Origin: Halorientalis sp. IM1011
GTDB lineage: Archaea; Halobacteriota; Halobacteria; Halobacteriales; Haloarculaceae
Direction of reading: 5' to 3'
Assembly: GCF_001989615.1 (NCBI RefSeq)
Contig: NZ_CP019067.1
Coordinates: forward strand, 1,178,001-1,242,000
Length of the DNA stretch: 64,000 nt
Shown: positions 25,589 to 60,152 of the stretch, piece by piece
Numbering within the stretch: the first letter of the stretch is position 1
Layout of the letters: every line of letters starts with the position of its first letter
Translations under genes and position numbers: made by a program
Notes under the pieces: model-generated
What the model was told of the DNA's origin: nothing
The model's database searches: none
What the model saw: only the letters and a program-made list of their open reading frames with translations

Positions 25589-28288
25589 TCACTCCTCGAC
25601 CTGCTTCTGTAGCTCCTGTAACAGCGCCAGCGCCTCCATCGGCGTCGTCGTCGCGAGGTTCTGCTCGCGGACGGTCTCGGCAAGAGCGGCGTCCGGGTCG
25701 TCCGCACCCGACCCGGCCTCGGCCGCCGCACCGTTCGTCCGTGCGTCCGGTCGGTGGCCGTTCGTTTCCTTCTTTCCGTCGTGGGAATCCTCCGATTCGT
25801 CGGCATCGAGCAGTTCCCGGGAGCGGTCGACCACGCTATCGGGCACGCCGGCCTCGCGGGCGACTTCCACGCCGTAGGAGGCGGCGGCCGGCCCCTGGCG
25901 GATCTCGTGGTCGAAGACCACGTCCTGGCCGTCCTGCTCCGCAGCGTCGGACTGCGATGCAGTCCGACTGGCCTCCGAGGAAACCTCGGAGACAGCGAAG
26001 TGCAGATTGAACACCCCGTCGAGCGCGTCGGCGGCGTCGGTGAGTTCGTGGTGGTGAGTGGCGAACAGCGTTCGCGCGCCGATCTCGTCGTGGATGTGTT
26101 CGGTCACCGCGCGGGCGATGGCGAGGCCGTCGGTAGTGCTGGTGCCCCGCCCGACCTCGTCCAGCAGGATCAGCGAGCTATCCGTGGCGTTTTCCAGGAT
26201 CGCGGCGAGTTCGGTCATCTCGACCATGAACGTCGACTTGCCACCGGCGATGTCGTCGCTGGCCCCCACGCGGGTGAACACCCGATCGACCAGCGAGAGG
26301 CGAGCGTCGGCCGCGGGGACGAAGCAACCCGCCTGCGCGAGCAACTGGATCAGCGCCACCTGGCGCATGTACGTCGACTTCCCGCTCATGTTGGGGCCAG
26401 TGATGACGGCGAAGAACTCGTCTGCATCGAGGCGGGTGTCGTTGGGGACGAACGACGACTGGGTGCGCTCGACGACGGGGTGGCGACCGCCCTCGATCGC
26501 CGTCTGCCTGGGGTCGTCGACGAACGTCGGGCGAGCGTAGTCGTACTCGGCGGCGACGGTGCCGAAGGAGACCAGCACGTCCAGACGGGCGAGCGTGTCA
26601 GCCAGCGCCTGGACGCGCTCGGATTCGGCGGCCACTGTATCGCGGACTTCCCGAAAGAGGTCGTATTCGAGGTCGTCGGCGCGCTGTTCGGCCTGGATGA
26701 TCTCGTCCTCACGGGCCTTGAGTTCCGGTGTGTAGAACCGCTCTGAGTTCTTGAGGGTTTGCCGGCGCGTGTAGTCCTCGGGCACCGAATCGAGGTTGGC
26801 GTTCGTGACTTCGATGTAGTAGCCGTGGACGGAGTTCTGGCCGACCTTCAGCGAGTCGATGCCGGTGCGTTCACGCTCCTGAGCTTCCAGCGAGTCGATC
26901 CACTCCTTGCCGGAGCGTTCGGTCTCTCGCAGGTCGTCCAGTCGGTCGTCGTACCCCTCTGCGATGACACCGCCTTCGGTGATCTCGATTGGTGGTTCCT
27001 CGCGAATCGCCCGCCCGATCAGATCCCGGATCTCGTCGAGGGCATCGAGGTCGGCGCGGATCTCCCGGAGGGTATCGCAGTCGGCGTCGTCGAGTGTGGC
27101 CTCGATCTCGGGCACCACGTCGAGGGTGTCCTTCAGCGAGCGCAGATCGCGGGCGTTGGCGCGGGCCCGGGAGACTCGGGATATCAGCCGCTCCACGTCG
27201 TATACGTCCCGAAGGAGGTCGTGGAGGCGTTCGCGAGTGCGTACGTCGCCGGCGAGTTCGCCGACGGCGTCGTGACGCGCCTCGATGGCCGCGCGCTCGA
27301 TCAGCGGTCGCCGGAGCCAGTCCTTCAGTTCGCGACTTCCCAGCGCACAGGCAGTCTCGTCCAGCACTTCCACGAGCGTCGCCCCCGCACGGCCGTGGAC
27401 CGCCCGGCGCTCGAACAGTTCCAGACTCTCCAGAGCCACCCGGTCCAGCAGCATGTACTCCCGCGGGTCGTATCGGGTGACGTGGTTGAGGTAGTCTAGC
27501 CTGTCGCGCTCGCCGTCGGTGTCGTCCCCCTCTGCGCCTCTCGTATATTCAGCGTAATCCAGCAACGCGCCACAGGCCCGGATCTCCGCGGAGTTCGAGA
27601 GGACCGTCTCCGGGTCACCGAAGTACGACGCGACCAGCTCGTTCGGGTTATCGCCCTCGAAGGCAGCCCTGTCGTGCGGGGTGACCATGCAGTCCGAATC
27701 GAAGGGGTCGGTGGGAGCGTCGGGGCCGACGACGGCCTCCGAGGGGCTGAACCGGCCGAGTTCGTCGGCGACCGCTGACTCGTCGGTCGTGCTGGTGACG
27801 TAGAAGTCGCCCGTCGACACGTCGAGGAGGGCGAGGCCGTCGGTGTCGTCGACGCGAGCGAGGCAGGCGACGAAGTTGTTGTCGTCGGTCCGCAGCAGTT
27901 CGTCCTCGGTGAGCGTCCCGGGCGTGACGATCCGGGTGACCGCGCGGTCGACGACCCCGGTGGTCTCCTCGGGCTCCTGTACCTGATCGGCGACGGCCAC
28001 GCGGTAGCCCGCGTCCAGCAGCGTCTCGATGTAACTCTCTGCGTTGTCGATGGGGATACCGGCCATCGGGTACTCCCCGGTCGAGTCCTCGCGTTTGGTG
28101 AGCGTGATCTCACAGAGCCGCGAGACGCGTTCGGCGGCGTCGCAGAAGGCCTCGTAGAAGTCCCCGACCTGAAAGAGGACGAGGGAGTCCTCGTACGCCG
28201 AGCACAGCTCGAAGTACTGGGACATCATCGGCGTCAGCTCGTCGGCCCGGTCCTGCATCGTCTCGGGTGGGCCAAGCGCCGCGTCCAT
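25589..28288 (-). CDS. mutS: DNA mismatch repair protein MutS (first copy)
   Basis: The 899-residue MutS1-type protein has the mismatch-reading motif QVGDFYEAF (Phe-x-Glu) at the N-terminus. Connector, lever and clamp domains follow, then the ATPase with [13 protein letters not shown] (Walker A), [19 protein letters not shown] (Walker B) and FATHHHELT. Near residues 766-781, between FAVSE and [11 protein letters not shown], it carries a short insertion made of two DNA palindromes. A disordered acidic segment precedes the C-terminal helix. The start at 28288 ([14 protein letters not shown]) fits; the open frame extends far upstream but there it is antisense to mobA. Confidence 0.95.
25946..25991. 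repeat. Double palindrome inserted in-frame in mutS
   Basis: GTCGGACTGC-GAT-GCAGTCCGAC (25946-25968, 10-bp arms) is followed after four bases by CTCCGAGG-AAA-CCTCGGAG (25973-25991, 8-bp arms). It encodes the Ser/Ala/Glu-rich run [16 protein letters not shown] on the minus strand and falls in a loop that is shorter in the second MutS of this window. It resembles a small mobile or recombinational palindromic element. Confidence 0.7.
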
Positions 28289-35491: not shown

Positions 35492-38167
35492 ATGACCGAG
35501 GCGACGGGTATCGTCGGGGAGTTTCTCGCCCTCAAGGAGGAGACGGAGGCGGATCTGCTGGCGATGCAGTGCGGTGACTTCTACGAGTTCTTCGACGAGG
35601 ACGCCGAGACGGTCGCCGACGAACTCGATCTGAAGGTGTCCCAGAAGTCCTCGCACGGCTCGTCCTATCCGATGGCGGGCGTGCCGGTCGACGATCTCAC
35701 ACCCTATCTGACGGCGCTGGTCGAGCGGGGCTATCGGGTGGCCGTCGCCGACCAGCACGAGACCGACGACGGCCACGAACGGGAGATCGCCCGGATCGTG
35801 ACACCGGGGACGCTGATCGAGACGCCCGACGACGACGCCCAGTATCTCGCGGCCGTCGTCCGAGAGGGCGAGGGCTACGGCGTCGCCGCCGCGGACGTGA
35901 CGACCGGCCAGTTCTTCGTGACCAGCGTCGACGGCGACGACCGCGAGGGGGCCCTGTCGACCGAGTTGTACAAGTTCGACCCCGCGGAGGTGTTGCCCGG
36001 CCCCGACGTGCGGGCCGACGAGGCGCTGCTGGATCGGATCCGCGAGCGGACGACGGCAACGCTGACGTTGCACGCCGCCGACGCGTTCGCACCGGGGCGG
36101 GCCCGCCACACCGTCCGCGAGCAGTTCGGGGAGGATACACTGGCGAGCGTCGGCATCGCCGACGACGAGGGGGCGATCCGGGCGGCCGGTGCGGTACTGG
36201 CCTACGTCGAGGAGACCGGGCAGGGCGCGCTGGCCTCGATGACGCGCCTGCAGACCTACAGCGGGAGCGACCACGTCGAACTGGACGCGACCACCCAGCG
36301 CAACCTCGAACTCACCGAGACGATGCAGGGCGACCGGTCGGGGTCGCTCTTTGCGACCATCGACCACACCGTCACCAGCGCGGGCGGGCGACTCCTCCAG
36401 CAGTGGCTCGTCCGGCCGCGGCAGTCCCGCCGGGAGTTAGAGCGCCGGCAGTCGGCGGTCGCCGCACTCGCCGAGGCCGCGATGGCTCGCGAGGAACTCC
36501 GGGAAGTGCTAGACGGCGCGTACGACCTCGAACGGCTCGCGAGTCGAGCAGCTTCGGGCAGCGCCGACGCGACCGACCTCCTGCGAGTGGCCGAGACGCT
36601 CGCCCTCCTGCCCCGGGCGGCCGACGTGATCGACGAAACGAGTCGGCTGGCAGACTCGCCGCTACAGAGAATCGTCACCGACGCCGACCGCGAGGCCGCC
36701 GCCGACCTCGCCGCCGAACTGGACGCGGCACTGGCCGAGGAGCCGCCCGGAACAGTCACACAGGGCGGGCTGTTCCAGCGGGGCTACGACGACGAACTGG
36801 ACGAGATCATCGAGCGCCACGAGTCAGCCAAAGAGTGGATCGAGACCCTGGACGAGCGGGAGAAGGGGCGGCATGGAATCACCCACCTGCAGGTCGACCG
36901 GAACAAGACCGACGGCTACTACATCCAGGTCGGCAAGAGCGAGGCCGACGACGTGCCCGAGGCCTACGAGAACATCAAGACGCTCAAAAACTCAGAGCGG
37001 TTCACCATCCCCGAACTGGAGGAGAAAGAACGCGAGATCCTCCGACTGGAAGAACAACGCGGAGACCTCGAGTACGAACTGTTTCGGGTCCTCCGGGAGC
37101 GGGTGGCCGACCGCGCCGAACTCCTGCAGGACGTGGGGCGGGCGCTCGCGGAACTCGACGCCCTCGGGAGTCTGGCGACCCACGCCGTCCGCAACGACTG
37201 GACCCGGCCGGAACTGGTCGAGGGCCGAGAGCTAGAGATCCGGCAGGGCCGCCACCCAGTCGTCGAGCAGACCACCTCGTTCGTCCCCAACGACCTCGCG
37301 ATGGACGACGACCGGCGCTTCCTGATCGTCACGGGCCCCAACATGAGCGGGAAGTCCACCTACATGCGACAGGCGGCACTGATCACGCTGCTGGCGCAGG
37401 TCGGGAGTTTCGTCCCCGCGGAATCGGCCCGGGTGGGCCTCGTCGACGGGATATTCACACGCGTGGGCGCGCTCGACGAGCTGGCGCAGGGCCGGTCGAC
37501 GTTCATGGTCGAGATGCAGGAACTCTCGAACATCCTGCACTCGGCGACCGACGAGTCGCTCGTAATTCTGGACGAGGTCGGTCGCGGGACGGCTACCTAC
37601 GACGGCATCTCCATCGCGTGGGCCGCGACCGAGTACATCCACAATCAGGTCCGGGCGAAGACCCTCTTTGCCACGCACTACCACGAACTGACCGGGCTGG
37701 CGGATCACCTGGAGCGTGTCGAGAACGTCCACGTCGCCGCCGACGAGAGCGACGGCGACGTGACCTTCCTTCGCACTGTTCGGGACGGGCCGACGGATCG
37801 CTCCTACGGGATCCACGTCGCGGATCTGGCGGGCGTCCCGGATCCAGTGGTCGACCGCTCGCGGGACGTGCTCGAGCGACTCCGCGAGGAGGAGGCCATC
37901 GAGGCGAAAGGCGGCGGGAGCGGCGAACCGGTCCAGACCGTCTTCGACCTCTCCTCGGGGAGTTTCGAGCGCGCGTCGGGGGCCGACGAGCGGGCGACGG
38001 CCGACGGCGGTGCGGCGGCCACCGAGGGGAGCGACGCGGCGCTCGACCCGGAGGCAGAGACCATCCTCGACGAACTGGCCGACCTCGACGTGAACGAGAC
38101 GCCGCCGGTCGAGTTGATGGCGAAAGTTCAGGAGTGGCAGGCGGAACTCGACGGCGACGACGGCTGA
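35492..38167 (+). CDS. mutS: DNA mismatch repair protein MutS (second copy)
   Basis: The 891-residue protein also has the mismatch-reading motif (MQCGDFYEFF, Phe-x-Glu), so it is a true MutS1-like protein rather than MutS2. The ATPase shows [33 protein letters not shown] and FATHYHELTG. The C-terminal region has an acidic/Ala-rich linker and a final helix ELMAKVQEWQAELDG. It lacks the palindromic insertion found in the other MutS. A GGAGG lies immediately upstream of ATG 35492. Confidence 0.95.
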   Translation: MTEATGIVGEFLALKEETEADLLAMQCGDFYEFFDEDAETVADELDLKVSQKSSHGSSYPMAGVPVDDLTPYLTALVERGYRVAVADQHETDDGHEREIARIVTPGTLIETPDDDAQYLAAVVREGEGYGVAAADVTTGQFFVTSVDGDDREGALSTELYKFDPAEVLPGPDVRADEALLDRIRERTTATLTLHAADAFAPGRARHTVREQFGEDTLASVGIADDEGAIRAAGAVLAYVEETGQGALASMTRLQTYSGSDHVELDATTQRNLELTETMQGDRSGSLFATIDHTVTSAGGRLLQQWLVRPRQSRRELERRQSAVAALAEAAMAREELREVLDGAYDLERLASRAASGSADATDLLRVAETLALLPRAADVIDETSRLADSPLQRIVTDADREAAADLAAELDAALAEEPPGTVTQGGLFQRGYDDELDEIIERHESAKEWIETLDEREKGRHGITHLQVDRNKTDGYYIQVGKSEADDVPEAYENIKTLKNSERFTIPELEEKEREILRLEEQRGDLEYELFRVLRERVADRAELLQDVGRALAELDALGSLATHAVRNDWTRPELVEGRELEIRQGRHPVVEQTTSFVPNDLAMDDDRRFLIVTGPNMSGKSTYMRQAALITLLAQVGSFVPAESARVGLVDGIFTRVGALDELAQGRSTFMVEMQELSNILHSATDESLVILDEVGRGTATYDGISIAWAATEYIHNQVRAKTLFATHYHELTGLADHLERVENVHVAADESDGDVTFLRTVRDGPTDRSYGIHVADLAGVPDPVVDRSRDVLERLREEEAIEAKGGGSGEPVQTVFDLSSGSFERASGADERATADGGAAATEGSDAALDPEAETILDELADLDVNETPPVELMAKVQEWQAELDGDDG

Positions 38168-40844: not shown

Positions 40845-41296
40845 TTAAACGTGTTCCGTACGCTCAATATACTGCTCAATCGTGTCGGTCGAAACATCGC
40901 CTGCGGTCCCAACGTAGTACGATTCCTCCCAAAATCCGCCACCCCACAGATACTCCTCCAAGAACGGTTCGTGCTATTCCCACATCTCCCGCGCCGTGAT
41001 GCTCTTGACTGTTCGCACAATCTTGCCCGGGGCGTGCTTCGGGTGGGCGGAAAGGAACAGGTGTACGTGGTCAGGAGAGATGTGGAGTCGTTCGAAAGAC
41101 TCCGTCTCTCGTGATCCCGAAAATCGAGATTTTCGGACGACGACAGTATCTCGTAGCCGTACTCCTCACACACGTCGCGGAAACTCACTTCCAGTGATTC
41201 CTCGATTGGTTCGAGAATCGGGTGGCGGTACTTCGGACACCACACCGAGTAGTAGTTGACGTTGTACACCGTATGGTTCGACCGCTTCTCGATCAT
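40845..41296 (-). pseudogene. tnpA: TnpA (IS200-type HUH transposase) remnant
   Basis: The N-terminus is intact (MIEKRSNHTVYNVNYYSVWC, PKYRHPILEPIEES, CEEYGYEIL). Then a palindromic insertion (41117-41136 and flanks) shifts the frame. The catalytic HUH motif ISPDHVHLF, SAHPKHAPGKIV and the end SYYVGTAGDVSTDTIEQYIE follow in another frame, and a TAG at 40974-40976 interrupts WE-HEPFLEEY. With at least two lesions it cannot make active transposase; the catalytic Tyr region is also changed. Confidence 0.8.
41117..41136. repeat. Palindrome inserted in tnpA
   Basis: CCGAAAATC-GA-GATTTTCGG, a perfect 9-bp inverted repeat. Close by lies GGAGTC...GACTCC (about 41082-41101 on the opposite strand), giving two adjacent palindromes as in mutS. 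The sequence interrupts the region where TnpA should run from YEIL to ISPDHVHLF. Confidence 0.6.
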
Positions 41297-58934: not shown

Positions 58935-60152
58935 ATGAACCGGATAGCGACCCTGCTTCTCGTGACTGTCGTCGTGTTATCAGTTGTTCCGACAACAGCG
59001 AGCGCAGAGCGGACACAGAGTGATCTCGTCACGGTCACCGTGACGGTCGAGAACGAGGACGGACAGGCGGTCGGCGGCGCGACGCTGACCGCGAACTGGG
59101 ACGGCGGGAACCGAACCGCGACGACCGCCTCGAACGGACAGGCGCTGATGGACGTGCCCCGCGGCGCCGATGTCGACATCGAGGTACAGAGCGACGATTA
59201 CGTCCGCAACACGCCCTACGAGATCAGTGACGCCAGCCAGGAGTCGGTGACCATCACCGTCGCTGAGAAGGGGACCGCCGAAATCCAGGTGCGTGACGGG
59301 AACGGCGTGCCCGTCAACAGGGCCGCCGTCCAGCTGTTCCACGACGGCGAGATCGTCGTGAACTCCCGGACGGACTCCAACGGGTTCTACCAGAGCGACA
59401 CCATCGAACAGGGCGAGTACAGGCTCCGCGCGCTCAAATCGAGCTACTACAGTAACAGCACCACGTTCGACGTGGACGGTGACGTGAGCATCACGACCCG
59501 CATCCAGACGGGGTCGGTGCTGGCGACGTTCACCGTTCGAGACGGCCACTACGATCCGCCGCGGGCGGTTCAGGGTGCGACGGTCTCGATTCCCGCAATC
59601 CCCGACCAGTCCACGACGCTGGCGGACGGTGAGGCGACGGCCAGCGTCCCCGTCAACTCCGATCTCGAAGTACAGATCACCAAAGAAGGCTACGAGACGG
59701 TGAACGATACCCTCGAAGTGGACGAACGGGACACGTCACTCGAGGCCACTATCCGGAAGACCGAGGCGCTCAACATGGCCATCTCGGACGCACAGATCCT
59801 CGTGAACGGCAGCATCCGGGTCACGCTCACCAACGAGTACGGAACGGCACAGGAGGGGGTTCCGGTCACGCTCGACGGCGAGCAGGTCGGCGAGACCGAC
59901 GGCAGCGGTGAACTCGAAATCCGGATCGCGAACCCCGGCGAACACACGATCCGCGCCGAGTCCGAGGACCTCGCCGACAGCGCGACCGTCGAGGTCATCC
60001 GCCCGGGCGGCCCGACGCCCACGGAGACGGCCTCCGACGCCGAGACGGCCGACGAGACGACGACCTCTAGCGGCATCGGCCCCGGGTTCACGCCCGTCGC
60101 CGCCGTCGTCGCCGCACTGGTCGCCGCCCTCGTTCTCCGCCGGCGAGCCTGA
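58935..60152 (+). CDS. PGF-CTERM surface protein with beta-sandwich repeats
   Basis: The 405-residue protein has a Sec signal (LLLVTVVVLSVVPTTASA) and four or so carboxypeptidase-regulatory/Ig-like beta domains (VTVTVENEDGQAVGGATLTA; IQVRDGNGVPVNRAAVQLF; GVPVTLDGEQVGETDGSGEL). A Thr/Glu/Ala stalk leads to a C-terminal PGF-CTERM tag (GIGPGFTPVAAVVAAL ... RRRA). Archaeosortase A would cleave and lipidate the C-terminus. Probably a cell-surface adhesin or scaffold. Confidence 0.85.
   Translation: MNRIATLLLVTVVVLSVVPTTASAERTQSDLVTVTVTVENEDGQAVGGATLTANWDGGNRTATTASNGQALMDVPRGADVDIEVQSDDYVRNTPYEISDASQESVTITVAEKGTAEIQVRDGNGVPVNRAAVQLFHDGEIVVNSRTDSNGFYQSDTIEQGEYRLRALKSSYYSNSTTFDVDGDVSITTRIQTGSVLATFTVRDGHYDPPRAVQGATVSIPAIPDQSTTLADGEATASVPVNSDLEVQITKEGYETVNDTLEVDERDTSLEATIRKTEALNMAISDAQILVNGSIRVTLTNEYGTAQEGVPVTLDGEQVGETDGSGELEIRIANPGEHTIRAESEDLADSATVEVIRPGGPTPTETASDAETADETTTSSGIGPGFTPVAAVVAALVAALVLRRRA

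Follow-up and report, generated by a model that had tools for sequence, protein, structure and literature searches.

Mobile palindromes that insert in frame and code for protein have long counted as an oddity; they are described mainly from Rickettsia, and no mover is known for them. Mitochondrial double-hairpin elements (DHEs), in work on Allomyces, are reportedly made of two adjacent small-loop hairpins with variable stems, and are thought to be mobile. Rickettsia palindromic elements (RPEs) are small palindromic repeats that sit in frame within many unrelated genes and encode a conserved peptide; RPE-4 and RPE-6 are CGTC-tagged REPs, are often found in DNA-repair genes, and belong to a type for which no transposase is known (PMC3733652, PMC10969869). 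The CGTC-tagged REP superfamily (Di Nocera et al. 2013) has been reported from five bacterial phyla only, with intragenic copies in repair genes, and its REPs have 4–5-nt loops, 8–9-bp stems and a CCA tail (PMC3733652). The portion of PMC3119063 covered here describes the SMR-A repeats of Haloquadratum, which are ~110 bp long, have terminal inverted repeats and insert into the near-terminal palindromes of IS605-type transposons, together with PATEs, whose near-terminal palindromes are related to IS605 ends and which include 52-bp terminal-only forms; that portion describes no in-frame insertion of a PATE or an SMR-A repeat in ordinary genes.

A species-specific insertion in mutS

The window, by which we mean the whole 64,000-nucleotide stretch of DNA that was analysed, comes from a haloarchaeal genome, judging by its acidic, GC-rich gene content and by the relatives that turned up. 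On the minus strand at 25589–28225 it carries a mutS gene of the MutS1 type (878 aa), in an open frame that runs upstream to 29095 with homology from 28225. The closest solved relatives of the product are bacterial MutS proteins, and a scan of genome contigs matched distant bacterial MutS proteins only. Codon alignment with 29 orthologues revealed a species-specific, in-frame insertion of 51 bp (17 codons) at 25945–25995 on the minus strand. By tblastn it was missing from 29/29 other MutS orthologues, the nearest of which have a clean empty site; in the congeners L003 and L004 (~90% protein identity), this site reads NLHF-(R/A)ADQDGQDV. The second MutS of the window (35522–38077) likewise lacks the stretch, bearing out what the sequence-only reading had said of it, and the diverged loop in all orthologues that this reading had named as the sign of ordinary protein evolution is not what the alignment gave.

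Because a GCT repeat flanks 25945–25995, the edges of the insertion are uncertain by a few bp. The ancestral site TTC GCT GCG GAG CAG would have become TTC GCT-[48 bp]-GCT GCG GAG CAG. Alignment to solved MutS places the insertion between NVHL and HGDTIAFMHS in the ATPase domain, at what we take to be a turn between two beta-strands, and the same turn is length-variable in other, more distant genera (L007, L009 and L010). The palindromes are translated in frame on the minus strand. The description of MutS as essential in the sequence-only reading is unsupported: Halobacterium salinarum NRC-1 tolerates the loss of both mutS genes and mutL, and their deletion did not raise its mutation rate (PMC2816208).

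The insertion holds two adjacent perfect inverted repeats, with arms of the 8-bp and 10-bp lengths previously read from the sequence. On the minus strand, hairpin 1 (25973–25991) is CTCCGAGG-TTT-CCTCGGAG, with 8-bp arms and a 3-nt loop (AAA on the plus strand), and hairpin 2 (25946–25968) is GTCGGACTGC-ATC-GCAGTCCGAC, with 10-bp arms and a 3-nt loop (GAT on the plus strand). The 4-bp gap between them (25969–25972, minus strand) is occupied by a linker, GCCA, which in the form GGCA/GCCA is conserved across the family described below. A right-end tag, GACG (25945–25948, minus strand), identified from the sequence and a family-wide tally, overlaps the end of hairpin 2, and the right end reads CGTC in reverse complement; the left flank is TTCG, with no clear GACR (GACG or GACA). 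As single-stranded DNA the insert has a folding z of −5.5, and its geometry, 8-3-8-4-10-3-10, equals that of another copy (L188).

A dispersed double-hairpin family in haloarchaea

Exact-sequence searches for the mutS palindromes found no second copy in the 3.78-Mb genome, only 2-mismatch near-matches and no convincing copy in 146 family genomes, and neither the palindromes nor the element core in viral contigs. Alone, a single-copy exact palindrome would argue against mobility; structure-based searches overturned this, revealing a widespread haloarchaeal family that keeps the plan while its stems vary.

Our own-script structure survey covered sampled stretches amounting to ~784 kb of the 3.78-Mb genome. 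Single hairpins were mildly enriched in the window (30 versus 19), and it is adjacent hairpin pairs, rather than single hairpins, that carry the signal: in the 384 kb around the window there were 11 such pairs versus 0.5 expected, mostly with 3-nt loops. In 617 kb of predicted CDS there were 3 adjacent triloop pairs whose arms add up to 16 or more, where synonymous-codon shuffling predicts 0.07. Those three pairs and one shorter pair have a common linker, GGCA/GCCA, and a common reading frame, and their hosts are a haloalkane-dehalogenase-like gene, a histidine kinase, a CBS-domain gene and mutS. The idea that insertions in general are hairpins was rejected, as most short insertions among the indels that separate this species from its congeners over ~95 kb were non-palindromic. 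We also dropped a histidine-kinase locus of G002 as the G000 orthologue with compensatory stems, since synteny indicated different loci.

The family is haloarchaeal and consists of hairpin 1 (~8-bp arms, usually a 3-nt loop), the linker GGCA/GCCA, and hairpin 2 (7–10-bp arms, a 3-nt loop), with an overall size of ~45–60 bp and a right end that is often GACG or GACA. With one genome sampled per species, the linker and hairpin 2 pattern of the kinase and dehalogenase copies, GGCAAYCAGAACGC-NNN-GCGTTCTG, searched with ≤2 mismatches, was found in 124 of the 243 genomes of the order, and its reversed control had no match in any genome. The mutS/kinase variant GSCARTCGGAC..GTCCGAY occurred in 49/243 genomes of the order (1 match for the reversed control); when a sample of the phylum was searched, it matched only members of the order. 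One copy from another genus (G211) has a linker and hairpin-2 arms identical to those in mutS.

In an alignment of 24 copies, with mutS excluded, 93.4% of the cells were paired and 75 were compensatory, while slid-structure controls had 31–41% paired and ≤16 compensatory cells; compensatory changes were present in both stems. A covariance model trained on these 24 copies, again leaving mutS out (R3), scored the mutS insert (25945–25991, minus strand) best in the window, with an E-value of 1.1e-6 (next, 0.01) that is somewhat optimistic for hairpin 2, and to a lesser degree for the linker, hairpin 1 and the geometry, because more than half of the training copies came from a pattern designed with knowledge of hairpin 2 in mutS and in one histidine-kinase unit. 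R1, with hairpin 2 shifted by one column, was set aside. R2, the first narrow model, proved too restrictive and gave the mutS copy no score. No Rfam family matched the element above its gathering score, and only tRNAs were matched in 12 loci. The window contains one further weak match to the element models at 59470–59529 (R2 E 3e-5, R3 E 0.01); its stems are poor, and it may be a copy in decay or a chance hit.

The dehalogenase site is occupied by a 17-codon insertion in G000, G002 and G005 and by a decayed one in G007, and it is empty in G001, G003, G004 and G006. In the distant G018 this same spot holds a separate insertion, belonging to another subtype, whose peptide GDSEARSAAGSRTESGDG matches the CBS-protein insertion of G000 (DSEARSASGSRTQSGDGE). 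The MutS of the congener G003 has our site empty and a family member lying in frame in another loop, VACLA-SEGRSPSTSRPESDDGE-TYGLALL (41.8 bits). The unrelated Pfam hosts include CBS/MaoC, Aldedh, beta-CASP, M29, PhoU/TrkA-C, HerA-like, GNAT, MFS, prephenate dehydratase and histidine kinase, and family copies are also present at intergenic sites.

Six histidine-kinase loci (L189, L190, L203, L212, L288 and L305) have tandem in-frame N-box units, AVEHG-STGNQNAKRSDD-AVEHG-STSNRTSSDD, in which hairpin 1 forms with host sequence coding VEHG. At C1:1255390-1255440 of the genome that holds the window (L145), a 48-bp double-hairpin insertion, recognized against G002 and G004, occupies a frame that resembles a deacylase (DGRIYGRG); the linker differs from GGCA, and the insertion possibly belongs to another family. 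At G005:C1:1820260-1820310 (L162), two adjacent hairpins with 10-bp arms form an apparently in-frame insertion in a copper-ATPase-like gene, VADEVG-REAGETGLRKRGGAAATQ-FDEYRAELL. The window's own genome also has a second family of double hairpins, intergenic and with triloops, in which TCATCA/TGATGA is the linker, at C1:1259204 (L145), C1:1464180 (L171) and C1:2502141 (L182); an example is CGAGAGAGC-GAA-GCTCTCTCG TCATCA CGAGGGAC-TTG-GTCCCTCG.

End motifs, probable mobility and alternative origins

The 8 nt that follow hairpin 2 include GACR in 34 of the 46 copies, against a 9% background, and the 10 nt that precede hairpin 1 do so in 25 of them, against 12%; the reverse-complemented right end is CGTC in 30/46. 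Sense orientation in one common reading frame was found for 21 of the 22 copies called coding, a count in which the kinase copies are not mutually independent, although on inspection the element has several further open frames. In coding DNA, 43% of GACR sites are in sense orientation and codon phase 0 (GAC-R), so that target preference accounts for part of the frame bias; the remainder probably reflects selection. Several copies have direct repeats at their flanks that are imperfect and differ in length (GACGTCGG for the dehalogenase, GACGCTGTCGAACACGG for the kinases and GCT for mutS) and that may stem from target duplication or from microhomology-mediated template switching. A true target-site duplication is not favoured, since the left and right tetranucleotides of the copies listed lacked covariation by eye.

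The sequence-only reading had suggested a small mobile palindromic element, a guess that proved largely right: a family with the same plan lies in frame in many unrelated haloarchaeal genes, and the element may still be mobile. The mutS feature is very probably one copy of this dispersed haloarchaeal double-hairpin family, a non-autonomous mobile element that inserts in frame. The insertion itself, the dispersion of the family, its conserved and covarying double-hairpin fold and its fixed coding frame are direct observations, from which we infer the non-autonomous mobility.

As to how it moves, we tentatively suggest, at somewhat less than even odds, that the family spreads as folded single-stranded DNA, mobilised in trans by a Y1/HUH transposase of the IS200/IS605 type. 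The element would be copied or moved as a single strand folded into its two hairpins, the transposase would supply the movement, and targets containing GAC(A/G) would be preferred. GAC being a very common Asp codon in haloarchaea, many insertions would thereby fall in one orientation and phase. The frame so favoured would encode a soluble, polar stretch, ..SEVSS..A/G-S/N-R/Q-T/N..SD, adding a short hydrophilic loop, and selection would purge other insertions and retain those at surface turns, such as the one in the MutS ATPase domain. No transposase linked to the family was found; Y1_Tnp genes are present in the genome. At three IS605-type transposase loci of this genome, double hairpins lie, passenger-like, inside the end palindromes: at C2:147381-147444 (L307), C3:12990-13056 (L308) and C1 just upstream of 2305450 (L310), each is in a near-terminal palindrome upstream of an IS200-type tnpA. 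The window itself holds, at 40860–41272, an IS200-type tnpA (Y1_Tnp) that is broken into two parts and has a TAG inside it.

The main rival is template switching or fold-back, in which a strand end jumps during replication or repair at GAC-type microhomology to another copy of the element and back, the stems being kept perfect likewise. This would suit the variable, imperfect direct repeats that flank several copies, the kinase hairpin 1 made with host sequence, and a search for a mover that came up empty. However, the fixed linker and the right-end tag better suit a discrete element that has ends of its own, as does insertion into IS605 end palindromes, and we regard template switching as possible but unlikely. 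A host-beneficial RNA or DNA structure, acting in mRNA stability, translation pausing or protein binding, would explain the covariation through selection on structure and fits stems that stay perfect while loops vary; it is improbable, as the element is patchy among orthologues, is spread over unrelated genes and intergenic sites, has a decayed copy in G007 and matches no Rfam family. We give very little credence to ordinary protein evolution, whereby a length-variable surface turn, as seen in L007, L009 and L010, gained a Ser/Ala-rich loop whose palindromes arose by chance or codon bias, given paired perfect triloop hairpins far above the synonymous-shuffle expectation, a clean empty site in the closest relatives, and an architecture, linker and frame repeated in unrelated genes.

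A broader reading, to which we give an even chance, is that of an undescribed order-wide mobile family that moves as folded single-stranded DNA and whose GAC target and coding content lead to sense, in-frame insertion in conserved proteins, making it a recurrent source of surface loops and an archaeal counterpart of the RPEs. With its filled and empty sites, its defined target bias and hosts as tractable as Haloferax and Haloarcula, such a family would open mobility, the choice of target and the tolerance of proteins to direct testing, and could also account for puzzling repeated inserts in haloarchaeal proteins, for example the AVEHG-STGNRT..SDD units of histidine kinases.

Comparison with known systems

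We found no archaeal description of this family in the open-access papers that were searched. Like SMR-A repeats and PATEs (PMC3119063), the element is haloarchaeal and transposase-free, and the double hairpins at L307, L308 and L310, though not the mutS copy, resemble SMR-A in sitting within IS605-type near-terminal palindromes. The mutS element differs from SMR-A in being 51 bp long with two unlike hairpins, rather than ~110 bp with terminal inverted repeats, and from PATEs in that, at this genome's intact TnpA loci, the hairpins interrupt the IS605 end palindromes and are not homologous to them. The element shares subterminal hairpins, a short fixed end motif and a short, one-sided target motif with IS200/IS605 and REP/RAYT systems; unlike these, it lacks an open reading frame, and the search turned up no transposase dedicated to it.

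DHEs of fungal and algal mitochondria, compared here by general plan, have a similar layout, and are organellar and presumably unrelated in sequence. As in the CGTC REPs, the opposite strand of hairpin 2 reads CGTC-AT-stem-loop-stem-AT in many copies, and the CGTC tag at one stem end, as in RPE-4 and RPE-6, is present in mutS and in 30/46 copies. The element departs from CGTC REPs in its loops, most of them 3 nt long, and in having a TGGC tail on that strand where they have CCA; in addition, two unlike hairpins are joined by GGCA/GCCA instead of one unit forming a head-to-head dimer. As with RPEs, the element is small, palindromic and in frame in many unrelated protein genes, including the repair gene mutS, although RPEs are bacterial and the element is haloarchaeal only, as far as searched. 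By analogy, it would work like the bacterial RPEs and REPs and the organellar double-hairpin elements.
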